This document shows, in pieces, positions 1,252 to 24,888 of a stretch of 64,000 nucleotides of DNA. Numbering within the stretch: the first letter of the stretch is position 1; each line of letters opens with the position of its first letter. Under the pieces are notes generated by a model that saw only the letters and a list, made by a program, of their open reading frames with translations, had not been told where the DNA came from and made no database searches. Source of the DNA: Cladophialophora immunda. Its lineage: Eukaryota; Ascomycota; Eurotiomycetes; Chaetothyriales; Herpotrichiellaceae. Position numbers and translations under genes: made by a program. The stretch covers positions 2,936,485 through 3,000,484 of the forward strand of contig NW_015622542.1 in NCBI RefSeq assembly GCF_000835495.1, in the 5' to 3' direction.

Positions 1252-3488
1252 ATGAAACGATCAGCCCCAGCCCCGGCTGGTTCTGTCTCTCCACCGCTGG
1301 TCAAGCGCAAAATTGAATCGGCCACCACCAGTATGATGAGGAACCTTGCAATATGATACAGTGCTGACTGGGCCCAGGTAAGGCTGTGGCTAGCTTCTTC
1401 AAGCCAGCGTCTCAAAAGGAACCAGAGAAACTCGTATGGCGGACCGTTGACCATAGCCTCATCATTGGCCGATACAATGTGCCCCATAAACCGCCCCAAC
1501 CACGCACCCTTCCTGTCAAAATTGCGGCTTTCGATCTGGACGACACTCTCGTGGCCCCAAACACCGTCAACAAATGGGCGAGATCTGCAGTGAGTTGGAA
1601 ATGGTGGGATCCCTCAATCCCTGGCCGATTGAAATCTCTTCACGATGATGGCTACCTCCTTGTCATTCTCAGCAACCAGTCGGCAATCAGCCTGAAGGAT
1701 AATCCCAAAACCCTCAAAAAGGACATGGCCAGCCTTGCAAACTTCAAAAACCAGGCCAGCTCCATCCTGAAACAAGTCGACTTGCCAATCAGTATCTACG
1801 CCGCCACAGGCCAAGACCGATATCGCAAGCCTCGAGTGGGGATGTGGGAGGAGATGTTGGAAGACTACGATCTTCAAGCCGAAGGAGCCGTGGACATGGA
1901 ACACTCGTTCTATGTGGGTGATGCTGCGGGGCGAGATAAGACCGACAAGAGAAGAAAGGATCATGCAACGTCGGACAGGTACTCGCTAATGTCATGTCGT
2001 TGGTGAATGGTATGCTCACTGCCATCAGGGATCTTGCGGCGAACATTGGTATCAAGTTTCACACACCAGAAGAGTTCTTCCTCGACGAGGCCACTGAACC
2101 GTATGAGCACGTCTTCGACCCGACAAAGCATCTTGAACCTGCACAGCCTTCTGATTCTACTGTGACCGGCGCCGTGGAGGACACCGTATCCGCACCGTTC
2201 ACGAAGAACAGCCCCCACGAGTTGGTCATTTTCTGCGGCTCACCAGGCGCTGGAAAAAGCACATTCTATTGGGACGTCCTCCAGCCACTTGGCTACGAGA
2301 GAGTTAACCAAGATATCCTCAAAACAGTGAGTTCAAACCATTTTCCCTGACTGGTGGTGCTTTCCGTGCCGGCATTTCCTGAATACAGTGACACGACATC
2401 CTGCCATGTCAGCCCCTACATATGTGGCCTTCAAGGAGAAAGGGTTTTAAGCTGAGACATTACTATTTCCGTGCAGCGCGATAAATGCATCAAGAAAGCA
2501 AAGGAACTCTTGGAGGCAGGGTTATCCGTGGCAGTTGGTACGTCTATTCTTCTTGTTGCTCGAAGTGTTGGCCTGCTCAACCTCCTCCTTCCCTCGACAG
2601 TGACACACATGTCATTTGCTGGACAGGGACAAAAATGACATGTCATGCAGAAATGCCGTGCATGCAGCTGTCTGTCTGGCCATGAGATGTCACTCCTGTA
2701 CAACTCTACCCAGCATCTCTTGTTACCCTTGTCCTACCCCCAATCAAAGACCTTCCCCAGATTCCGTTGTAACTACAATGACTCGACCACCTTGGGACAA
2801 TATCCACTCTCTGCATCATGCGCCAAATCATCATCTGGCCTGAATCTCTCTTTCCGCTCTTCCCCGTCTCGTCCCTCCATCTTGCCAACCCCCTATCTTG
2901 AGTTCTACCACATGACGCCATCCTCGTACTTACTGACGCTTGTGCTGGAATGACAGACAACACAAACGCAGACATCGAAACCCGGGCGTACTGGGTAAGA
3001 GTAGCCCAGGAATTTAATGTCCCTATCCGCTGTGTCCGCTTCACAGCCTCGACTCGACTTGCAGAGCATAACGACGCTGTGAGGGCAATGAATCCAAATA
3101 CGGTGTGTATCCTCTCCTGCATCGGACGCGATACTCGTTGCAAGACTTCCAGCTGTCCATCTGCAACTTATCTACATTCAAGTACAAAAGGCTGACGGCT
3201 TCCCCATAATCAACAATAGATGAATCCTGAGAATCGGACCCAGCTCCCTGGTATCGCATTTCGATCTTTTATCCAAAGATTCCAGGAGCCTACTCTCGAG
3301 GAGGGCTTTGAAGATATCTACAAGGTCGAGTTTGAGGTAGGTCCTAACCATGTTGTTGTGCCACCTCCATCCGACTCCTCCAGTCATGCTTTCGCTTCTC
3401 ACTGACACGGCGGGACTTATAGTTCAAGGGGACCGAGGAACAGAAAAAACTTTGGTCAAGATATTGGGTGTCGAAGTTTTCAACGTGA
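1252..3488 (+). CDS. PNK1: Bifunctional polynucleotide phosphatase/kinase (PNKP/Pnk1)
   Basis: Seven exons (1252-1330, 1378-1978, 2029-2326, 2477-2537, 2957-3102, 3220-3336, 3423-3488) give 455 residues. The HAD-type 3'-phosphatase domain comes first, with the nucleophile motif FDLDDTLV at residues 78-85 (D79, D81) and ILSNQSAIS after it. The P-loop kinase domain follows, with Walker A GSPGAGKST at 297-305 and the downstream VDNTN motif joined across intron 4. The enzyme converts 3'-phosphate/5'-OH DNA ends into ligatable ends during nuclear strand-break repair. There is no FHA domain, as is usual in fungal Pnk1. The N-terminus (MKRSAPAPAG..KRK) is basic and could be a nuclear localisation signal. 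Introns are 46-150 nt except intron 4, which is 419 nt. All exon phases agree. Confidence 0.93.
2607..2643. repeat. 11-bp inverted repeat inside the long PNKP intron
   Basis: ACATGTCATTT (2607-2617) is the exact reverse complement of AAATGACATGT (2633-2643), separated by 15 bases. It sits in the 419-nt intron 4, the only long intron of the gene. Confidence 0.6.
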
Positions 3489-7035: not shown

Positions 7036-8577
7036 ATGGAACATAGCACTCTATATCCCTTCGACACGCTGCCTCCCGCCACTCGCTCTTCCGGCTCTTC
7101 AGTCGACACATCCTCACCCACAGTATCCATGTTCTCCAAGGGCCATTCTTCTCGAGGTTCCAATTCCTCGGCCGCATCCTCGCCTGTCCCCCGAGAGTCC
7201 CTCGACATGTTTGGAGGGGTTAAGCGGTTGGAAGATGTCACCGAGGAGCCTCAGGAAAGAGACGAGTTTGACGGTTACACGTTGGTCAACGACGGCACAT
7301 GTGACTGGAGTGACTATGACAAGGCTTTCTCAAGTGATTACGGCCACCCTTCGCCTCCCACCTCCCCAGTACAGCCCGACTGGATCTTGGCAGCACCCAA
7401 TGACTCGTCAATCACCCACCAGCCTTATCATATGGTGCGTCGCAGATCAGCAGAACAGCCGTCGTCAACACAGGGTCACCGCTTCAGCAGCAAATTTGGG
7501 TCACTATCCCGACGGTGGAAGAACAGATCGGCAGCTGGACCTCAGCTCTCAATCGTCACGCATGTCAGCGCTTCCGCTTCTCGTTCGGGATCCCTAAGCT
7601 CTTCGCAGATCTGCAGCCCGGCTCTCAGTGCTGTCTCCAAGCATGAAAGCATCCTGCCATCCTCCTCGACTGTGCACCTGACGAACGAAGCAGTCGTTGA
7701 CGCGGATGTGAGACCAATAGAGATTGAACAGAAGATGCCAGAACAGGACTTGGCGGAGTCAATCCAAGCCACCACACCTCTATTGCCACCCATGTTCTCC
7801 GAATTCTGCAAGAGAGAAGAGCCTGTCCACTCTCCTCTTCAATCACCGGCTATTGCGCCTACATCCGCCGTTCTGAGCTCACGGCCGTCCCTTGATGCAC
7901 CATTGTCAGGCCTGCCATCCCCTCCATTGTCGACGAAACCGTCAATGGTCTCCATCCACACAAGATCCCGCGCGAACACGGCGAACAATTGCCCTTTTGG
8001 CGATATCCCCCCATTGCAGCTTCTTGAAGACCCCTCCGATCCTTGGGCCGTTCGCCTGGGTCATGCCAACTATACCATACACCCAGAGCCGTACACTCCT
8101 GAGACCCTGGACTTGGACTCTTATGCCGAGTTTCGCAAGAACTGGGATCAGGCCAGAACACACTATGCTAAGCACATAACGAGGACCGCCGAGCACTACG
8201 GGTCCACTTCCAAAGTCTATAAGCTGACGGAGGAAAAGTGGGCTTCGATTGACGACACTTGGAAGCGGCAACACAACCTTATGAGGACCGCCCTGGCCCC
8301 GGTTCTGGCTCGTCTAAGCGGTGATTCGGAGACGCAAGACTCTACCACGTCGAGCTCGGTGCTCGAAAAGCCTCTCACTAGAGTGGTTGTGCCTGTCATC
8401 GATGACAAGAGTGGAAAATTTCCCAAGCTTGGTGACGGCGAGATAGTCGGACCAATGTCTGTCGCTCCCCCTCGCGCTTTCAGCGATTCCAACAGGGGCG
8501 CCGAAACAGGGAGCCCACCCATCTCACCACACAAGCGGAATCTCCTCAAAGTCCTTTCCGATATCTTTCGCAACTGA
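7036..8577 (+). CDS. Conserved fungal Ser/Pro-rich protein of unknown function
   Basis: Uninterrupted frame of 513 residues starting at ATG 7036. Residues 1-320 are low complexity, rich in Ser, Pro and Thr, with basic clusters such as HMVRRRS and LSRRWKNR. The C-terminal third is ordered-looking and carries the run DPWAVRLGHANYTIHPEPY followed by a helical, charged stretch (FRKNWDQARTHYAKH). This layout resembles a family of Ser/Pro-rich proteins in Eurotiomycetes usually labelled hypothetical. Function is unknown. It has no signal peptide or membrane segment that I can see. The many SP/TP sites suggest phosphorylation by proline-directed kinases (inference). The leader is unusually long and free of other genes, which suggests elaborate regulation. 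Confidence 0.8.
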   Translation: MEHSTLYPFDTLPPATRSSGSSVDTSSPTVSMFSKGHSSRGSNSSAASSPVPRESLDMFGGVKRLEDVTEEPQERDEFDGYTLVNDGTCDWSDYDKAFSSDYGHPSPPTSPVQPDWILAAPNDSSITHQPYHMVRRRSAEQPSSTQGHRFSSKFGSLSRRWKNRSAAGPQLSIVTHVSASASRSGSLSSSQICSPALSAVSKHESILPSSSTVHLTNEAVVDADVRPIEIEQKMPEQDLAESIQATTPLLPPMFSEFCKREEPVHSPLQSPAIAPTSAVLSSRPSLDAPLSGLPSPPLSTKPSMVSIHTRSRANTANNCPFGDIPPLQLLEDPSDPWAVRLGHANYTIHPEPYTPETLDLDSYAEFRKNWDQARTHYAKHITRTAEHYGSTSKVYKLTEEKWASIDDTWKRQHNLMRTALAPVLARLSGDSETQDSTTSSSVLEKPLTRVVVPVIDDKSGKFPKLGDGEIVGPMSVAPPRAFSDSNRGAETGSPPISPHKRNLLKVLSDIFRN

Positions 8578-9500
8578 TATGTACAAATCCCTGCGATCCT
8601 TTTCACTTGTACACAAAGCCCTCCTCGCCACGACTGTACACATTTTCTTTCGGGTTATACAGAACCATTTGTCTACCATTATTATGGCTGGCGTTATCGA
8701 GACAGAGACCTACAGATGCGAAGGACGTGACCGCAAGGTCTTGAAGGAGGAAAAGAAACTTGAATCCAGGGAGCGATCCCTTGTCAACAACACCTGCTAT
8801 GCCACTTTCCCTGGTAACAACAACAGCCATATTTGCCAATTCGTTCTCTATGCTTTACGATGACCACGACGAAAAGTCTAACGTTCCTTCCACAACATTA
8901 TCCTCATCCAGCAAATGGTATTCCAGATGATGACGACTTGCAGCCTTCAGCACAGCGAAGCGACCTTTTTTTTTAAGTCTTTGTTTTCAATGCTTTCGGG
9001 TGCGCGATGGATTTCGGAAATCGGTGAGGAAAATTCAAATTCGGCGTCACCAAGGTCCTGTAGGTGGAGATGGAGTTGGGGGAATATTTTCGTACACATG
9101 GCGGCTTTCATACATCGCTAAACGGACGTGCAACCTCTCGAGAGCGAACACGATAGAAGGATCCTGATGTATGCTAGCGCAGTCGGACTGCCAGATTTCT
9201 GCTACAGTGATAGAGAGAGACGGAGCTGAGGGCTGAGGGCTGAGAGCTGAAGCCAAGAGGTCCTGGTTATATGGCCAGAACAAAGTTTTCGAGAAAGACA
9301 GTTAAGACAAAGTGCAGATATACGCCCTCAAAGAAACTGGGTAGAAATGGCAGAATCTGAAAAGTGGAAAAAAGCGCAGAAGTGAACGTTCTCTTGTTCA
9401 TCCTTGGATGTGATTCAATGATGTAGATGTTGATGTAGGACGAGCCGTGCGCTTGGTCTCTGTTTGTGTAGAAACCTCCCTTCGTCGGCCAGAGAGAGAC

Positions 9501-9558
<58 letters not shown>

Positions 9559-10321
9559 GGGCTCGGGGAGTGGAGAGGGAGCAAGGGTTGTGGTGGCTGG
9601 AAGATGTAGGGAGGGGACAGTCATGGGAATGGTCAGGGTCAACAAATGGAGATGGGGCCATTAAGATGGAACGATGAGCAGGGGAAAGCAGGGCAAGGTT
9701 TTCGCAGAGATCAAGAGGAAAAGGGAAATCGGTCATGCTTAGAACCCGGTCATCAGACCACGACATTCATCGCGGTGTTGTATCTCCCTCCTATAGCTAG
9801 CTGGAACCATGCGCGGTGTTGGTATTTGTTGTGCACTGCAGATAGGGTCGCAGCGGAGCTGAAGAGATATCTAACTGAGGTAAGCATGGCAACGTTGGAC
9901 ATCTTGTCCGTATAAGAAAGATGTAGAAAGAAGAGGGTTCCTTCATGCAAAGAGTCAGATTTGTAGGAGAAGCCGCTCCTGCAAAGCCGCGCGGCGCTCT
10001 CTCTCTCTAACCACCCAGTTGCCAGTTGGAAGAAGACTTTGGAAAAGAGTCGACACCACATTGCTGAGCGCGTCGTTTGCAGAAGCTGAAAGCGATTGCA
10101 AGAGCCGTGGACTTCAAGCTTGCTGAGAACGGCTTGCGGCGCCGTCGGGAGGTGTGGCTGTCCGGCCCTATGATGTCGTTGCTGTACAATCCGCCAGATG
10201 TCAGCAAAAGGGACTTGTGTTGCATCGAGTATAGGCGCTTGTTCCCGGCTCGAGATAAGAGGGAGGATGAGGAGCTTGCCTTTCTGTGCCGTGATCAATG
10301 AAATAAAAAAAAAAAACAAAT
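8578..10321. other. Intergenic region downstream of the Ser/Pro-rich gene
   Basis: No supported gene. The first 300 bases are probably 3' UTR. It contains a GA microsatellite with a poly-G run (listed separately) and a short poly-A tract at about 10302-10320. Open frames over the microsatellite are artefacts of the repeat. Confidence 0.4.
9491..9561. repeat. (GA)n microsatellite followed by a 14-G run
   Basis: About 57 bases of GA dinucleotide, slightly interrupted by GACAGAGACA, then 14 consecutive G at 9548-9561. Purine-only on the plus strand, so prone to slippage and to non-B structure. Sequencing length may be unreliable here. Confidence 0.95.
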
Positions 10322-11107
10322 GGCTGAATATCACCCAACCACCCTCTTTCCAGGCCGTATGCACATTGCTGTCGATGAAAATTCACAGTGGAAAGTTGTC
10401 GTGATATGTGCTAGAAATCAGTCAGCAGTGACCGGGAGATGCACGTCGCGGGGATGTACTCACGAGATCGTTTGTATTGGAGAAAAGGACGACCTGGATA
10501 CCACCCGACCGCCCTCTTTCCAGGTTAAATGGCGAATGTTGTAATTTCTGCCCAGATTGGGAGATAATGTACACTAAAGACTGTTAGCAGAAGAGAGAGC
10601 AAAGGGGGAGGAACGGAAAAAGTACTTGTCGTTAGACATGGGGAGTTCTAAGACCTGGGAAACCGCCCAACCGCCCTCTTTCCAGGTAATACAAGTCGTA
10701 GAATGTTGTTAAAGGCCGCCAACTGGTGATGCGCTTGCTGTCGTCGTAGAAGTTGTGAACATGTCGCTATATTATTGAAGATCAAGGCTGAGAAGGGAAA
10801 TGTTGCAGAGATGTCATGATTCTTTTCGAGGGCGTCGTGATAGCAGCTCGTGAGCTGAATGTACCAAAATGAAACAGAGATGACCAACATCATCTGTGAG
10901 AACTGCGGTGCTGCGCCTTTGAAAGACCATACAACGCCAAATGTGAGTGAAACGGGGTATCTGCTGGCAGTCAGATGCTGTTGGACGAGCTTGAGAGCAC
11001 ATATGGTGGTTGCCTTACCATAACTGTGTACATAGTCCAAGGAACTCCTGGAAGCCTCCCTGCCACCCTCTTTCCAGGAAAATAGTCGTATAAGCTGATC
11101 AGATCGT

Positions 11108-11238
11108 GAATAGTTGTACAAGGTATCTTGGATTCATCATTCAGGATTTCAAAATGTCGTCAATAGCTGTCCAAAATATGTCGGATTTCTTATGGAGGAG
11201 CTGAAAATGTCGTCGATAGTCGTACAAGGTATGTGGAG
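11108..11238. repeat. Degenerate 53/54-bp tandem repeat within the hairpin array
   Basis: Three diverged copies with phase-matched cores: TAGTTGTACAAGGTAT at 11111, TAGCTGTCCAAAATAT at 11164 and TAGTCGTACAAGGTAT at 11218. The last two are also preceded by AAAATGTCGTC. The spacing is 53 and 54 bases. It lies between hairpin copies four and five. Confidence 0.6.
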
Positions 11239-12056
11239 ATGAAGCGATAAGCTGTGGTGAAATGTGCCGCTCGTCAAAATGCTTGGAACGCTGTGCGAGA
11301 TTGAGTTGAGTTTCTCAGTCGAAGATGCTCGGAGATGTTCTGGTGCATGAAGCATTAGATACTTGAGACTCCCAAGCCGCTGAAATGAGGTAGATTGTTG
11401 TTGTAATCGTGCAAAAAGATTCTGAAAGCCACCCTGCCACCCTCTTTCCAGAATCCAGAAAATTGTGTCGTTGAGATTTCGAATCATTGAATATGCTGAA
11501 CCGAGGATAGCCTCATGAATGTTGTGTGGTGTGCCACTGTGATGTCGTGGAATGCTTGCGTCGCTACGCAGACTTTTGAGGCTGTCGTTTCATGGAGGAA
11601 ATAGAAACGTCGAGATTGTCGTTTGATGTAGGAGAAGAAAAAGGACTTCTGAGAACCACCCTGCCACCCGCTTTCCAAGAAGTCGATATGTGCAGTTGTT
11701 GACATGTTGTACTTTCGACAAGTTGTCGTTTGAATGCTGCACTTCGGTTGTTGTGCTTGCCACTTGTTTGGTATCTGAGGATTCGAAAATCGAGAAGCTG
11801 CCTGCCCAGAGAGAACGGATTGTGTGCATTGAATGAAAAGAAATGCTGGAGACCACCCTGCCACCCTTTTTCCAGATTTCATTGGTTTGAACACGTGTGA
11901 GATTGACATGACGAGTCAACAGTCGAACAGAAGACATGAATGGCAATCTTTCGGAGCTGAATTTGTTGGTTGTTGCGTGATTGTTGTGCTGACAATCTGA
12001 GAGGCGTCGAAAAGAAGTCCCGGAGTCCACCCTACCACCCGCTTTCCAGGATTGTA

Positions 12057-12380
12057 TTGATGTTGAAGTAGTGTTGATGTTGAAGTAGTGTTGATGTTGA
12101 AGTAGTGTTGATGTTGAAGTAGTGTTGATGTTGAAGTAGTGTTGATGTTGANNNNNNNNNNNNNNNNNNNNNNNNNNNNNNNNNNNNNNNNNNNNNNNNN
12201 NNNNNNNNNNNNNNNNNNNNNNNNNNNNNNNNNNNNNNNNNNNNNNNNNNNNNNNNNNNNNNNNNNNNNNNTTGATGTTGAAGTAGTGTTGATGTTGAAG
12301 TAGTGTTGATGTTGAAGTAGTGTTGATGTTGAAGTAGTGTTGATGTTGAAGTAGTGTTGATGTTGAAGTAGTGTTGATGT
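12057..12380. repeat. 17-bp tandem repeat interrupted by an assembly gap
   Basis: Near-perfect repeats of TTGATGTTGAAGTAGTG: about 5.6 copies to 12151 and about 6.4 copies from 12272 to 12380. The unit contains no C on the plus strand. Because it flanks the N run on both sides, the true copy number is unknown. Confidence 0.97.
12152..12271. other. Assembly gap of 120 N
   Basis: A run of 120 undetermined bases within the 17-bp tandem repeat. Any open frame crossing it (for example a 375-residue minus-strand frame) is unreliable. Confidence 1.
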
Positions 12381-12723
12381 CAAAATGTGAGGGAAAATTT
12401 GAATAGCCATACAGCCTTGAGACACAGTGCCGATCTTTGAGAAAATCTCAGAAGTTTGAAGACCAAAACGGTTCCTGGAAGCCACCCAATCGCCCACTTT
12501 CCAGGATGAACTCGATGACTGAGTGAGATGTAAGAACATGAAGCAGGGAATGTTGACGTAGACCGTGCAAGTTCTTGATGAGGTTTTGCTTTGGTGAAGT
12601 GATGAAATCCGGTCGAATATCAGCAGGAAGGCCTTGGAGACCTGGTCGAGACTTTGTCGAATGGGACGGATGATGGATGATGAAGAAAACCCTGGAAAAC
12701 CACCCTGCCACCCTCTTTCCAGG

Positions 12724-13122
12724 CTTAATAGCCTCATTGGGTTTTCATCGATGTGTTGTAAGTCCTGATGATTTGGACTGTGGAATGGTGCGCTGAACAC
12801 TGCTCCAGACAAGAACTGACTGAACCAGCCACTGTTTGATCTGCAGCTCAAACAGCGACTGGCAAGCCTGATTTGTCTTTCACAGTTCCCAGCATTGTTT
12901 GTTGATGTCGAGAAGGTTGATGTCGAGAAGGTTGATGTCGAGAAGGTTGATGTCGAGAAGGTTGATGTCGAGAAGGTTGATGTCGAGAAGGTTGATGTCG
13001 AGAAGATTGATGTGTTTGTTGTGTTTGAAGCCGCCCTGGCCAAGTTCTGTGCCTTTGGTGTGTACCTGACTGCAACCTTTGACTCCTAGGCGCCTTAGAA
13101 GCCATCAGTTGCCATGAAGCAA
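12724..13122. other. Spacer between hairpin array and C2H2 gene
   Basis: Non-coding by my reading. It contains the 15-bp tandem repeat listed separately and presumably the 3' UTR of the minus-strand C2H2 gene that stops at 13123. Confidence 0.5.
12901..13005. repeat. 15-bp tandem repeat, seven perfect copies
   Basis: Seven identical copies of GTTGATGTCGAGAAG, then a diverged eighth (ATTGATGTGTTTGTT). The unit shares GTTGATGT with the 17-bp repeat 500 bases away, so the two may have a common origin. In one plus-strand frame it would read VDVEK repeats, but that frame is short and has no gene context. Confidence 0.97.
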
Positions 13123-13968
13123 CTAGAAGAATTCCGCGAAAACACTGTCTAGTGCTGGAGCTTTTGTCAGGAAAACACCTCCGCCAGACCCGTAAGTTGT
13201 AAACGGGGAAGGCTGGACGGCGTTCTCCTTGGGTACAGTGGCCTGTTGGGAGCCGCCAGCGGTCATCTTGGTCGCAGGCGATATAGGCTTTGCAGGCGGC
13301 TGCAGTCGGGGAATTTCTTGTCCCCAATGACCGTTAAACTGTGTATAATTGGCTGCGAACCACACCGGATCGGTGGGCACGCCTGGAGCCAAGTTGATGC
13401 CTTGCTGGGAGGCATCCACGCCCATGTCGAGCGTGACAGCAGGCCCTTGAACCAGGGCGAGTGCTTCTTCTTGGAGCATTTGCTGCTGCCAATGCTCCAT
13501 AGGTGGGTGCACTCCGTACCCACCAAAGTCCTGCTCCTGTGCAGGAGCAAACTGCTCTTCTTGAGCGTTCTCTGGGGCTGCAGATTGCAGCCCATTGACC
13601 TGAGGTGTCCTGTTGTCCAGAACGCCGTCGTTCTGCACGAGTCCCTCTTGGTTGACCCTGACGGGTCCTGGGAGCTCGTCTGCCCAAGCAAGGGGCTTGT
13701 GAGGGCACGATCTGATGTGCCGCTTCACGTTGTCGACGCGGTTGCTGGTGTGGTCGCAACCGAACTCGTGCCATGCGCACCTATAAAGGCCGGCGTTGCC
13801 GGAGCAGGACCTTCTGTGCCTGCGGAGGTTGGACTTATCTGTGAAGACCTTCTGGCAGGCTTCACAGACTGAGCGCTCTCCGCGGTGAGCGCTCGCCAGA
13901 TGGCCGTTGAGAGTGCTCTTGGCCGTGAAGGCCTTGTCACACTCTCTGCAATGGAATGGGCCGGCCAT
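13123..13968 (-). CDS. C2H2-type zinc-finger protein, probable transcription factor
   Basis: Single exon of 281 residues from ATG 13968 (good context, CAAG before ATGG). The frame extends upstream only through non-ATG codons. Finger 1 is a classical C2H2 (C7, C10, H23, H28). Finger 2 is C2HC-like (C35, C38, H51, C55). Finger 3 is wider (C64, C71, H84, C88). The rest is Gln/Pro-rich and acidic, like an activation region, ending in [12 protein letters not shown]. It probably binds DNA in the nucleus; the target is unknown. The hairpin and tandem-repeat locus begins immediately downstream on the same strand. An upstream spliced exon cannot be excluded. Confidence 0.8.
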
Positions 13969-15856
13969 CTTGAATGCTCTGGTGGTTGTACGTGTAGAGC
14001 GGTGTGGTGGCAAGTCCAAGGTGTTGGTGCTTGAGCCTGGGGTGTTGCAGGCTCCTTCGGCAAGAGTCAGCCTCCAGTGGCATTAGAGGATAAGATTCAA
14101 ATGGTACCTTTTGACGCGTGGGAGGTCGCTGTCTTCAGGACAACGGCGAGTGCAGGTTGATGAATTGGTGTTCAGTGTCGGGCTGAATGCAGCTTTCTGG
14201 TTTGATTTTCTGTGAGGATCGGACTGTGTCGTAAGAGCTGTATGGGTTCTAAGGAGAGGGAGAAGGAGAGGACAGGAAAACAGGACGACATTTGTACTCA
14301 AGGCGAAACGCGTGAAAAGGAATTCCCTCCGGTTGAACCATGATGTGTCTCTGTTTTGAAACTTAAAAGCTGCTTAGAACTTACCATTGTATTGATATAT
14401 ATTACGGTCCTGCAACGACGGGAGTGGGAAGCTTGGACCCGAAAGAAACAATCACACGGCAAAAGGGCAGCGCGAGCTTTGATAGACTTTGACAACGTGT
14501 GGTAGAGCAGGCCGGGAGTAAGTCAGGGGAAGAGAACATGGTTGGGTGTAACGGTAGATGCAAAAATACACCAGAACGGGAAGTCATAGTAACGCGGTAA
14601 ACTTTCAACATCAAGACGAGAATCGAAATGCCTTGGTTGCCTCGCGATCATATCGACTCACAATCATTTCCCTGCTCAAGTGGCCGGAGAAGGGTCGCCT
14701 GCAGCGGGTTAGGGTTTGCTGCATTTCATGGTTGAGGAATATGGATTCATAACACGTCCAAAATCGCGAATGTACGAGGAATGCGTGGCTCATTGTAAAG
14801 ATCACTCTCACAGTCCCAGCTCAGTCATCGCTCAGGTCTTTCAAACGACGAAGGTCAATGGATTCTCTCCGCTGGAGGCTGGCTCGGTGCGTGTAGGAAA
14901 GAAGGTGTCCAGATCGAAATCTGCTTTGTTATGTCGAAACACCATCAACCACAGCAACGAGCGAAGGGACCCAAAGACCGTCCAGCAATAGAGTCCGTCG
15001 TGTATGACGCTGGCGACAAACATGGCCAAGGGCCCACGATGTATTGGTGGTTTCCAAGGGTCCCTGAATGCGCAAGTTCCAGACTTGTGCCGGTGGTAGA
15101 CGTCCGTGCCACCGACCTCGCCGTCGTCAAGGTGAACCAGATAAGTTTGGTTCAGACGGGACCTTGGAGACCGTGTATCATGAGGCAGGGTGAGTTTTGT
15201 GAGGGGTCTCCACGTCAACCAAGAAGTACTCTTCATGGCGCCTGTATGTGGTAATTTTCTTTCTTCATTCGCGTCGCGTTTCACGCGTCCCGTCTGTATT
15301 GGGTGGAGTCGTGTATTTTATTTTATCTTTTCCAAACCACAAAAATACAGTACAGGAGCAAGTTTCCTTGGTGCTTCGAAAGGATGTGGGTGAGAGGGTG
15401 AGAGGAGCAGGCATCTGGCAGTCGTGTCGTCGGTTGTTAGGGTGAGCAGTTGCTTGATGGAAGAGATGCAATGCACTGGTGAGGTTGGAATTAGGTGCTT
15501 CGTATTGACAGTGTGCGGTGCCGTAGTCTCGGCCTCGCGCAACAGCTATCTGACGCTGGCACGTGAAGCGTGCATACTTGTAGTTGCAGGTGGTCCCGCC
15601 CCGCGCCGAGCCCGCTTATTCCTCTGCCCATGCGCCGACGGTCAAACGAGGGAAAGTCAAACCCCCCCCGCCATGCACCGCCTCTTTTCCATCGCTTCTT
15701 AAATCCATCTCGCATCCCGCAACCTCTGGCGTCGGTGCTCTAACTTCTCCCATCCAACTCCCAGGCCGTTCCCGAAACACCCTACTTCGTCTTCTAGAAC
15801 GCCGCACTTCGATCGCGGACCTTAATTCCCTTATCCGTAGCCCCGCGGCCTTCGAC
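13969..15856. other. Intergenic region between divergent genes
   Basis: Promoter/leader space for the minus-strand C2H2 gene and the plus-strand myristoyl-type gene. Open frames here are short and without motifs. A CACGTG is present near 15560, roughly 300 bases before the next start. Nothing else was recognised. Confidence 0.4.
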
Positions 15857-18895: not shown

Positions 18896-21032
18896 ATGGA
18901 CACCAATCACGCCAACGATCCCCCAGCGAAGGAGGCCTCGGGACTGGACCAGAAACCCACTCAATCCGAGCACACCATGCATATCGAGGAGACGTCGTGG
19001 GAGCTAGAAGACCACGGCGACAACTCTGCCGGAAACGCCGACTGGTCTAAGAAACAGATGGCCGCATATGCTTCATTGTGCATGCTCTGGGTTGGTAAGG
19101 ATGAACCCCTGTTGCTACGTTTGTCTGAGGATCCAGTTGCTAACCCCACGCAACACATGTAGGCTCTCAAGTTCCTCTCTACTTTGTCGGTGGTTCCCTC
19201 GCATACATGGTAAAGGATCTCGGTGGAGCACAGGCACAGGCCTGGCTGCCGGTATGCTACACTCTGGTTCTTGCCGGAATTTGTCCCTTTGTAGGATATC
19301 TTCAGGATCTTCTCGGGCGGCGTTACATGACTTTAGGAGGGGCGGTCGTCATCCTGGTCGGGAGCGCCGTTGTTGGCAGTGCACATTCGTTTGGGCAAGG
19401 TATTGCTGGAATGTGTATCGCTGGAGGCGGCGCAGCTGTTGGTGAGCTTACTGCTCTTGCCGGGTAAGATGCTCACAAATGTCCGAAAGCCAACGACGGT
19501 GAGATGTGCCGGAAGCTAACGTGGGACAATAATACAGGACATCCGAACTCGTTCCTGTGAGAAAACGAGGCCTCTACATTGGCATCATCATTCTGTTCCT
19601 CCTCCCGTTTTGTCCCTATGTCATGTACTCGCAGCTTCTGAGCACCCACGCTACCTGGCGGTGGACCATGTGGATCTCCATGTGAGTGCTGAGTCTGCGG
19701 TTGATGCTTGCCCGTCGGGCTGTAGAAGCTGAAGATTGGCACAGGATCTACAATGCGATTGCTTTGGTGGGAATTACACTGTTCTACTTTCCCGAGAGGA
19801 TCCATTCGACAAACGCCGGACCCGGTCTGGCCATCTTGACCCAGATTGACTATGTGGGGGGATTCTTATCAATCGTTGGAGCGGTTCTCTTGTGAGTCGT
19901 CTTGTCATACGCGTTAACCCTAACCGTAGGCTGACGGAGACAATGGTAGTCTTGTGGCCATCCAAGCGGGAGGATATACCTACCCGTGGAGCAGTGCCCG
20001 AGTACTCGCCCCTCTCATCATCGGGGTCTTGTTGGTCGGCATCTTCTTCGTCTGGGAATGTAAAGTCGCCAAACATCCGTTGATACCACGAGAACTCTTC
20101 CAGGGTCACCGTGCGGTTGCCATCAGTTTCCTGGCGGCCTTTGTCGGTGGCATGAACTTTTACTCCCTCCTCAACTTCTTCCCGTTGTCGTTTGAGACCC
20201 TCTTTGACCCTGCGCCCGTCCAAGTCGGCTTGAAGGGACTCGGTTACGGATTCAGCGTGACTCTCGGAGCCGTGTTTTTCAACATCCTGCTCACAGTTTT
20301 CAAGAACCATCACAGAGAGGTGATGATCATCGCCGCGGTCGTCATGAGTAAGTCTACTGTTTCGTTGTTTCTGTCCAGAACCCCCAAGCGTGTCCTGATG
20401 GATGAAAAGACTAATCAGTGTACCAATACCACAGCCGCCTTTGGAGGAGCGTTGGCCGCGGTCACTCCCGAAACGCCACGCCTTGCCGTGGCCCTGGGTA
20501 CAATCTGCGGCTTTGGTACCGGAGGACTCCTTGTCCCCCCACAGACTATCGCCATTAGTTGCAGGTGAGTGTGATGGGATGCTGATTATGGCCAGAGAGT
20601 TATCTAACAAAGATTGCCTCTAGCCCGGACGCATTCATTGCCACCGCTACCGCCCTCTCACTTTGTGTTCGAGTAATTGGCGGCTCCATCGGATACGCCA
20701 TCTACTACGCCATCTTCAGCAACAAATTGACGACCGATCTCCCAGCCAAAGTGGCGGCGTATGCCGTCGAAGCAGGGTTGCCAGTCTTTTCCGTCACCGA
20801 ATTTGTCGGGACGTTTCTCACCGACCCGAGTGCTGTGGCGAGTGTCGAGGGAGTCACACCGGCGATTCTCGCCGCTGCGACCAAGGGGACTCAGTGGGCG
20901 TATGCGGATGGGCTGAGGCTGGTTTGGCTGACGAGCATTCCCTTTGGAGTGTGCGCCATCCTCGCCTGCTGCCTCTTGGGGAATACCAAGGCGTTCATGA
21001 CGAATCGCATCGCGGCCCACATTCGCCACTAA
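18896..21032 (+). CDS. MFS transporter, TRI12 (trichothecene efflux pump-like) family
   Basis: Seven exons (18896-19094, 19163-19463, 19538-19681, 19745-19891, 19950-20347, 20435-20564, 20624-21032) give 575 residues. A hydrophilic N-terminus of about 55 residues is followed by roughly 14 hydrophobic segments. The loop motif LLGRRYMTLGG is a variant of the MFS signature between TM2 and TM3. Later runs such as SSARVLAPLIIGVLLVG and GGSIGYAIYYAIF are typical of the TRI12/siderophore-type subfamily. Members move small molecules across the plasma membrane with protons, mostly export, sometimes siderophore uptake. The gene ends before the convergent beta-oxidation gene and shares its promoter with the lactonase-like gene. 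Uptake or efflux of the cluster's substrate is plausible but not shown. Confidence 0.87.
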
Positions 21033-21956: not shown

Positions 21957-24888
21957 CTACAACCTACCTCGATATTTTTCTCTGAGCAACTCTGCCCTTC
22001 CCCCATTGATACAGATCTTGCCCGTCTCTACGACCGATGTCTGAAACAAGATGGCATCGCCCTCTCTCCACATCTCTGTCCGAAGAGTCTGGCCCGGATA
22101 CACGGTAGAGGCAAATCTCGCTCGGATATTCCTGATGGGTCCAAATTCTTGGTATATATGTTTGCCCGACATGCCGAAGAAGCACAGCCCGTGGAGGATG
22201 GGTCTCGAGAAGCCGACCGACCGGGCTTTGGCGAGATCGACATGCATTGCGTTACGATCCCCGTTAAGCCGGTACAAGGCAGCGTGCTCCTCGGTGGTGC
22301 GTTCAGAGCGGACGACGTCGACCTTCCGGCTTGGTGCGAGCGCTGTCGATGCCCGATGGCGAGATTTGGTACTCTTCTGGCCTCCAAACCCTCCAGCTTC
22401 TCTCACGAATGCCGCCACCTCGTTGTAGAAGATGTCCTCTCCCGTCTCTGCGTCGCGTGTCGTGTAGCCTGTCACGATGATGGCCGCCTTGTTCTTGTCT
22501 AATACCTCTAGCAGGCGAGGGTACGTGACCAATTTCGCCGCAGTCGGGATGGGGAACTTGCGGACTTCCAGATAATGCTCGCCATGGAGCAGATTGGCAA
22601 GATTCCATTTCGGCAAGAGCTCGTCATAATTGAAAGGAAGCTTGGTGTTGAAGAACGGAACTACACCAAAAGTCGGCAGGACCTGGAAATTTCGCTCTCG
22701 CTCGTGTATCAGCGGGAGCTCTCTCCACGTCGCTCCCAGAGTCAGATCTGCAAGCAAGAGTCAGATCAGGCCACATGAACCGCGTGTTGGTCAACTTACT
22801 GTACAGAATTACCTCTCTGTCTCCGTATTCGTACGTTGTCCCCGAAATCGTGCGTCTTTTTGCGTCCTTGATTCGAGCCAGTACCGCACTCTGGGAAAGC
22901 AATCCCACTGTCTCTTGTAGCGCACCCGGCATTTCCTCCGAATAGATCAGGTTGGTAAAATCGGCGACCTGCTTCAAGAACTTGGATGCGCTGCCCGAGG
23001 CCAGCTCTTCCTCGCGTGGCACCTGAGCCCCGCTACTCTTCTGCTGCCTTGTTCGTCCATGCCAGCCGACACCGAGCTCGAAGAACGCACTCGTTGACGA
23101 GAATCTCAGGGCATCCGAGGATATCAGTGCCACAAAGGGAGCGCATTGCTCGGGGTGGAAATTATCCCAATCACCCGAGACAGATCCCACCAGACCTGGT
23201 GTACTTCCAAAGGGGCACATGGCATTGACCGCGATGTTGTGCTTGGCACCCTCGCGAGCCAGCGCCTCTGAGAAGCCCAGGACAGCGCATTTCTCAAGGG
23301 AGTTAGGTTGGTGGACTTCGACAAATGGTGAGGTTCAACATACCGCGGTGGAATAGTTGGATTGCCCAAAGTTACCATACATACCACTCGTGCTGGAGAC
23401 GTTGAGAATCCTCCCATAGCATTGCTTGACCATGTATGGCCATGCCGCTTTGGTCACTCGGAACATGCCTTTAAGGTGCACGGCAATGATGGCGTCCCAG
23501 AGATCATCAGTCATGTTGGCAATCGACTTGTCACGCACGAAGCCGGCGTTGTTGACAACAATATCCAGGCGACCATACTTGGCGATTGCTACTTCCACAA
23601 TCCTCTCTCCTTCCTCGACCGAGCCGGGCACGGCATGGGCGTCGCCTCCCACTTGTCGGATGGCCTCTGCCACCTCCTCGGAGCCCTTGAGATCGTTGAC
23701 GATGACCTGGGCGCCCAGGCTAGCAAACAGTTTCGCATACGCTCGGCCGAGACTGCAGAGATCAGATGAATGAACCCGTCAAGTTGGCGCAAGGCAGACT
23801 CACCCGTTGCCAGCCCCAGTGACCAGCGCAGTTTTACCATCGAGCCTCACGCTATTATCTGTCGGACTTGGGGCCAAGGCAATGGCCTTGCGATAGTTGG
23901 ACGCATGATCCGAAGTGTTATTGGGATATGTCCCTTGCGAGAAGTCGTTGACGTCGTTCCATTTACTGAGAATGGCACCCGCCGTCAGGCCAGCATCGGG
24001 ATTGAGAAAGGCTCCGGACGCTCGTTGCCATCTAACCTTTCTCAGACGACCACCCTCTATTTCGTAGAGATGGCCGGTCTCTGTAGTGTTGGACCGGTGA
24101 ACCAAGGCTGCGACCACCTGCGCCACGACTTCGACCTCGGATGCTGGCACGCCTGGAGCCGAGCCCGCGTATCCTGCTGGAGCGAGCACCGATGCGAGAA
24201 TGTCGTACTTTGCTCCTTCTTTGGCGAGGGTCTGGATAAAGCCCAGCTGGCCATACTTTGCCGCTGCCACATTTGTCAACCCTCCTGGCCAATACAAGGG
24301 ACAAATACTGACCCGCATAAGAAGGTGAACATGTATATTCCTTTTCCACAACAGTCGACGTGCAAAGAATCCTTCCATGCTTTTGTATCTTCAAGTAGTT
24401 CCAAGCAGCGTTCACAATCTGAAGCGAAGGTCAGGGCAAACTCCGAACGCGTCATATCGGGGTTCAAGAGACCTTGTAGGCGCCTCGAAAGGTCGGATCG
24501 AGCATCGCATCCCATTCATCTCGCCCTGTTGCCGCCCAGTCGCCGTCCAGGTAGTCGCCATTGTTGTAGACGATGGCGTCGATGCGGCCGAATGCCTGGA
24601 TTGCAGCAGCAACGACACCCTTCCCGTCATGCACGGGATTCGAGACTGCGACCGCTTTGCCACCCGCCGACGTGATCGCTACTGCCAGCTCGTCGACGAA
24701 ACCCTAGGCGAGGTGACCGTATCAGCCTGTGCATCATCTCGAATGAGTTGAACCCTGCTTACCGCGTCTTTGCTGTCGTGGATGACGACGTTGGCACCAT
24801 GGCTTCCCAGGTATCTAGCATAATGCTTGCCCAGGCCATGGCTGGTCCCGGTAATTACAACGGTCTGGCCATCGAAGCGGAGCGACAT
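21957..24888 (-). CDS. FOX2: Peroxisomal multifunctional beta-oxidation enzyme (Fox2/MFE-2 type)
   Basis: Seven exons (24888-24763, 24703-24473, 24418-24313, 24263-23804, 23752-23344, 23292-22800, 22747-21957; introns 49-59 nt) give 871 residues. Two short-chain dehydrogenase domains come first: about 5-250 (TGTSHGLG; S..SPSYAAAK) and about 288-540 (TGAGNGLG, NNAG, SNYSTAK). A MaoC/hydratase-2 double hot-dog region fills about 610-871. Fox2 hydrates 2-enoyl-CoA and oxidises the 3-hydroxyacyl-CoA in peroxisomes. The hydratase-2 motif reads NGDRNAMH where SGDxNPLH is usual; the catalytic Asp and His remain. SDR1 has NNGD for NNAG. The C-terminus GRL is not a standard PTS1. These changes, and the cluster context, suggest a specialised paralogue rather than the housekeeping Fox2 (inference). 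Confidence 0.88.

Follow-up and report, generated by a model that had tools for sequence, protein, structure and literature searches.

The sc1 RNA and the Spinach aptamer are both products of laboratory selection. Each combines a duplex stem with a G-quadruplex made up of short runs of G, and the duplex-quadruplex junction of sc1 is bound by the RGG box of FMRP (PMC5135001). Stem and quadruplex are likewise joined in one motif in the stem-loop-containing quadruplex sequences of the human genome (PMC4477648). Among repeated elements, the Xist A-repeat consists of 26-mers, present in 7.5 copies in mouse and 8.5 in human and separated by U-rich linkers, and has been proposed to act as a protein-binding platform (PMC5742192). 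The DICE of the ALOX15 3'UTR, as described in PMC9701828, repeats a short C-rich element ten times.

Here we describe a locus in a 64,000-nucleotide stretch of the genome of the black yeast Cladophialophora immunda (the window) at which ten hairpin elements of 34–41 nt, all in one orientation, occupy positions 10322–12726. Their differing arms pair in cis, and conserved tracts alternate with freely varying linkers. The locus differs from sc1 and Spinach, which are single modules, in carrying ten natural copies whose quadruplex is a predicted one. In the human quadruplex-duplex hybrids the quadruplex contains the stem-loop (PMC4477648), whereas in the fungal module it would lie in the loop of the stem, and the arms of the repeated module show compensation. 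As judged from sequence and predicted structure, the array resembles the Xist A-repeat in that several structured units recur on a single strand, with diverged linkers between them, and differs from it in its loop and in its longer, variable spacers. The DICE lies in a known 3'UTR and has known binders; the fungal array begins approximately 20 nt past the stop of a possible plus-strand frame without detected homologues, lies downstream of the stop codon of a minus-strand C2H2 gene, and has co-varying stems. The Xist A-repeat, DICE and sc1 are offered as likenesses in a possible mode of working, not as families to which the array would belong.

Results

The array is situated within a 4.5-kb intergenic gap flanked by convergent genes (Table 1). 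Ten dispersed hairpins had been reported here in a preliminary description, and all ten were found, in the same orientation. With few exceptions each element reads, on the plus strand, as an outer arm, CTG(G/A)A.., CC-N-CCC-NN-CC-N-CCC-N-C-TTTCCAG and a second outer arm. Successive hairpins start 170, 161, 393, 374, 227, 197, 174, 455 and 217 positions apart, the spacing of 455 (hairpins 8 to 9) containing a 324-bp minisatellite stretch. A run of 120 Ns at 12152–12271 within this minisatellite represents either an assembly gap or a masked stretch, and a further element could be hidden inside it.

Table 1. Positions of the hairpins, spacers and flanking genes in the window
Feature	Position	Strand	Remarks
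Left flanking gene	7036–8577	+	100% identical to CLAIMM_06726 of Cladophialophora immunda
Hairpin 1	10322–10356	-	Fourth G tract lost; outer pairs GG/CC, one hand-placed bulge
Hairpin 2	10491–10526	-	
Hairpin 3	10653–10687	-	Inner stem with 1-nt bulge
Hairpin 4	11046–11079	-	
Hairpin 5	11418–11455	-	Outer arms GATT/AATC
Hairpin 6	11644–11684	-	Outer arms GACTT/AAGTC; one hand-placed bulge
Hairpin 7	11840–11880	-	Outer arms GAAAT/ATTTC; one hand-placed bulge
Hairpin 8	12016–12053	-	
Hairpin 9	12473–12506	-	Second G tract broken
Hairpin 10	12688–12726	-	Outer stem with one C-C mismatch
Spacers between hairpins	10357–12687		C-poor on plus
17-bp minisatellite between hairpins 8 and 9	12057–12380		Contains the 120-N gap 12152–12271
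Right flanking gene, C2H2 zinc-finger protein, 281 aa	13123–13968	-	Array downstream of its stop codon

The spacers are nearly unrelated between hairpins, and a tandem satellite with a similar whole unit was rejected on that ground. Downstream flanks of the hairpins gave a mean similarity of 26.1 against 24.1 for shuffles, with 2 of 36 pairs exceeding 3 sd (copy 8 left out), and upstream flanks 23.0 against 22.5 with no pair exceeding 3 sd. Tandem repeats of 53 and 17 bp are present within the array, and one of 15 bp just beyond it. On the plus strand the masked 10301–12900 stretch has a C fraction of 0.164 and a G fraction of 0.283. TGTCGT occurs 10 times on the plus strand of the spacers, 0.9 being expected for the masked 10301–12900 stretch, and its complement is absent within the array; this hexamer (10397–11724) constitutes a second strand-biased motif of the hairpin stretch.

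To assess pairing in cis, the 3' arms were permuted among the ten copies with the CTG/CAG core as anchor. True arms exceeded permuted arms in contiguous Watson-Crick run (p = 0.0025), in contiguous run with G-U allowed (p = 1e-4), in Watson-Crick pairs among the first five (p = 0.0085) and in pairing energy (p = 1.7e-4 with plus letters, 3.4e-4 with minus letters). Allowing one 1-nt bulge in true and permuted arms alike gave p = 1e-4 (Watson-Crick) and 1.7e-4 (with G-U). No single copy was responsible, p ranging from 5e-5 to 7.5e-4 when each copy in turn was left out, and the seven copies without an outer bulge gave p = 0.018 (Watson-Crick) and 0.036 (with G-U) by themselves. Since neighbouring copies share arms, the permutation test should be conservative. 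The first outer pair occurs as CG, TA or GC and the second as AT, TA or GC; after manual placement of outer bulges in copies 1, 6 and 7, 19 of the 20 cells for these two pairs hold a Watson-Crick combination. The statement that outer arms differ between copies yet stay complementary within each is thus upheld (cis pairing p about 1e-4), on the small sample that ten paralogous copies from one genome provide. Pair counts from a raw MAFFT alignment are weak, this automatic alignment misregistering several copies: 72.2% of cells were paired, as in 6 of 500 shuffles, and the covariation score was reached by 24 of 500, the number of pairs changed on both sides by 238 and the number of cells with such changes by 162, while sliding the structure by -1 gave a higher covariation score. 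The further contention that this pattern is hard to explain except by selection goes too far, as template switching is another process by which stems can arise and be kept (PMC8794818).

The loop is conserved in its runs and not in its exact sequence. TGGAAA on the minus strand (TTTCCA on the plus), previously noted as common to the elements, is present in 10/10 copies. The loop GAGGGTGGCAGGGTGG itself occurs exactly in 2/10, the remainder being variants, so that the earlier account of a conserved G-rich loop is accurate for the positions of the runs and not for the linkers, which vary. In the ten run columns of the C tracts (G tracts on the minus strand) 2 of 100 cells are changed, against 18 of 60 in the six interleaved linker columns. 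Fisher's test gave p = 3e-7 with cells treated as independent, which they are not as the copies share ancestry, and a column-level Mann-Whitney test gave p = 2.5e-4. Runs and linkers interleave within 16 bases and recent copying therefore cannot explain the contrast between them. No C occurs in any of the 50 cells of five of these six columns, as though the length of the tracts were important. The four G runs described earlier (3-2-3-2) are intact in eight copies; copy 1 lacks the final GG run and copy 9 the second run.

G-U pairs had been taken as a pointer to a minus-strand RNA, a suggestion that a count of wobbles does not bear out. A hand-made pair table, with 12 pairs for each copy, contains 9 cells that are G-T on the plus strand (A-C on the minus) and 7 that are A-C on the plus (G-U on the minus). 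When folded without quadruplex energies, the plus strand formed the core pair at P >0.6 in 8/10 copies with 25-nt flanks, as against 3/10 on the minus strand, and at P >0.4 in 6/10 with 120-nt flanks, the C-rich loop being open. The minus-strand stem reached P >0.8 under these energies in 3/10 copies with 25-nt flanks and 1/10 with 120-nt flanks. With quadruplexes allowed, at the rough quadruplex energies of the folding program, a stem bearing a two-layer G-quadruplex was predicted in 8/10 minus-strand copies, 3.1–8.4 kcal/mol better than without. The proposal that the loop suffices for such a quadruplex accordingly stands, as a prediction, for all but copies 1 and 9, and the same eight copies are predicted to combine four G tracts of at least two with a duplex stem, as quadruplex-duplex hybrid sequences do. 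This combination was the best minus-strand fold in 7/10 copies with 40-nt flanks and 6/10 with 80-nt flanks. Relative to likewise-folded shuffles the mean z was -2.1 for the minus strand with quadruplex and -1.7 for the plus-strand hairpin. Folding energies within the lowest 5% of shuffles were obtained for 3/10 plus and 0/10 minus copies without quadruplexes, and for 4/10 plus and 6/10 minus copies with quadruplexes allowed. Predicted single-element folding energies are only modestly better than those of shuffles, and the predictions slightly prefer the minus strand. A stem of at least 7 bp around a two-layer quadruplex motif was found in 6/9 clusters in the array and 2/115 elsewhere in the window. 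It is the ten stem-quadruplex modules together with their compensating arms that are unusual, and not the single folds.

The covariance model proposed in the preliminary description was built from the ten copies. Across the whole window it recovered these ten (48–62 bits) and one other match at 7.9 bits, adding no further copy. In an unfiltered search of 8600–14500 nothing else exceeded 11.6 bits, the match at that score being the antisense of hairpin 10, and the two long gaps between hairpins held chance-level matches only (best 8.5 bits, E 0.27). No Rfam family (4227 scanned) matched the window at the gathering threshold. Sub-threshold matches from a relaxed scan of 9800–13200, to a togavirus frameshift element and snoU36a, were judged to be chance.

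The 42.2-Mb genome was searched with degenerate patterns, using the reversed pattern as control. All 7 exact matches to CNCCCNNCCNCCCNCTTTCCAG lie in the array. At up to 2 mismatches there were 57 places, 10 of them in the array (reversed control 34), and three off-locus places had one mismatch, two of these being poly-C runs. The loop alone matched 76 places at up to 2 mismatches, 6 in the array (reversed control 63), and the tract pattern GGGNGGNNGGGNGG alone was too common for use (1,856 matches, 1,812 for the reversed control). As DNA, the whole stretch matched only itself with simple repeats skipped, and pattern and DNA searches together revealed no second array locus in the genome. No quadruplex-capped stem of at least 7 bp was predicted when 15 off-locus pattern matches were folded with quadruplexes allowed; the off-locus sites L007 and L072 have a 4-bp stem around a quadruplex and L035 a broken 5-bp stem. 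In viral and prokaryote collections the degenerate pattern occurred in 1 and 8 records respectively, with one exact match each, in stretches of GC 0.63–0.84. Two of these nine matches (L082 and L089) fold as a stem with a quadruplex. L082, at 2067–2121 (minus) of a contig in the viral collection, is a single copy scoring 24.2 bits with the model. As candidate relatives L082 and L089 were set aside, being pattern-chosen single copies; they are probably chance matches. A search of the open literature, partly aimed elsewhere, found no account of such an element.

The C2H2 gene at 13123–13968 appears to be patchily distributed, homologues beyond itself having been found only in Fonsecaea pedrosoi and F. 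erecta; for the left neighbour, by contrast, relatives at E 1e-10 number more than a thousand. About 20 nt separate hairpin 1 from the end of a possible two-exon plus-strand frame at approximately 9649–10301, after which comes an A-rich tract. A search with this frame gave 19 candidates, none of which qualified as a homologue, all having E above 1, and within the genome its C-terminal 74 residues have no match other than themselves. A weakly discriminating codon-usage score was mostly slightly negative over the array. CTTTCCAG was considered as a repeated 3' splice site and rejected, no canonical 5' splice or branch sites being seen nearby by eye. A transporter-like gene was noted by eye at about 18900–21030, two exon pieces of which have no Pfam match. 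CLAIMM_06732 encodes a pump raised 23-fold on toluene (PMC5595782); its number is six from CLAIMM_06726, and our guess from this numbering is that it is the gene at about 18900–21030. A search for the TRI12 family found nothing in the window among the 67 of 241 candidates scored. On the minus strand, 21960–22760 encodes MFE-2 type hydratase and MaoC-like domains.

Discussion

We tentatively interpret the locus as an array of structured RNA modules, situated in a noncoding RNA or a long UTR and serving as a multivalent protein-binding platform; this is the reading that we prefer, held at somewhat less than even confidence. The locus would encode one RNA, either noncoding or the long untranslated tail of a neighbouring gene. 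Were the array transcribed, each minus-strand module would form a 7–11 bp stem capped by a two-layer G-quadruplex, as predicted for 8/10 copies. Repetition of the module would then offer many equal sites to a quadruplex- or tract-binding protein, perhaps of RGG-box or KH type, and the resulting RNA could act as a multivalent scaffold, a sponge or an mRNA-control array. For C. immunda CBS 110551, a published strand-specific RNA-seq study assembled 5,300 non-coding transcripts from 4,507 loci (PMC5595782).

Two alternatives would also give the elements a function. In a plus-strand RNA the stem would present the open C-rich loop (CCACCC..CCACCC..CUUU) to KH-domain poly(C)-binding proteins, in the manner of the DICE. 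The openness of this loop in plus-strand folds, with the core pair above 0.6 in 8/10 copies with 25-nt flanks, the conservation of the C tracts, and the description of the DICE as a CU-rich, tenfold 19-nt element bound by hnRNP K (PMC9701828) all speak for such an RNA. Copies 2 and 6, however, do not prefer the stem even with 25-nt flanks, the wobbles (9 against 7) favour neither strand, and the available portion of the DICE account (PMC9701828) includes no hairpin; we regard a plus-strand RNA as unlikely. Of similarly low, marginally smaller probability is an element acting as DNA, in which the arms are extruded as single strands, one strand forming a G-quadruplex and the other an i-motif or C-rich loop, or else a polar protein-binding array; a replication-fork barrier or a transcription-termination array between convergent genes would be examples. 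All copies face one way between convergent genes, tract conservation is no less compatible with a quadruplex or i-motif in DNA than with a quadruplex in RNA, and the product of the C2H2 gene next to the array could be a DNA-binding protein. A double-stranded binding site, on the other hand, has no need of arms that differ and yet remain complementary.

The remaining explanations invoke mutation or mobility. An old tandem expansion in a minisatellite-rich stretch, its stems kept complementary by template-switch mutation and without function, would draw on a process capable of creating and maintaining stems (PMC8794818). It is also consistent with the 53-, 17- and 15-bp tandem repeats in or just beside the array, and with hairpin spacings that may reflect an old repeat of ~190 nt. 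Template switching accounts for the arms and not for fixed loop tracts beside varying linkers; moreover, the hairpins persist while the spacers have lost nearly all similarity, and the two long gaps hold only chance-level matches to the model. An origin without function appears improbable. It is most improbable that a small mobile element inserted repeatedly and independently into short palindromes: removal of the core from copies 5, 6 and 7 would indeed leave short palindromes, but the genome yielded no second locus, and the ten copies share one orientation within 2.4 kb.

A more specific form of the preferred RNA reading may be put forward, although we consider it doubtful: a natural fungal RNA bearing ten duplex-capped two-layer quadruplex knobs with G-poor linkers, selected for pairing and tract spacing and not for sequence, which would make it the quadruplex equivalent of the Xist A-repeat or the DICE array. 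To our knowledge, there is little evidence that natural selection maintains the G-quadruplex as a structure and not just as G-rich sequence. The ten copies in this one genome separate structure from sequence: tracts are kept, whereas the stems co-vary and the linkers are variable. Were it transcribed, the array would allow quadruplex function in fungi, and multivalent RNA scaffolds beyond the animal kingdom, to be tested.
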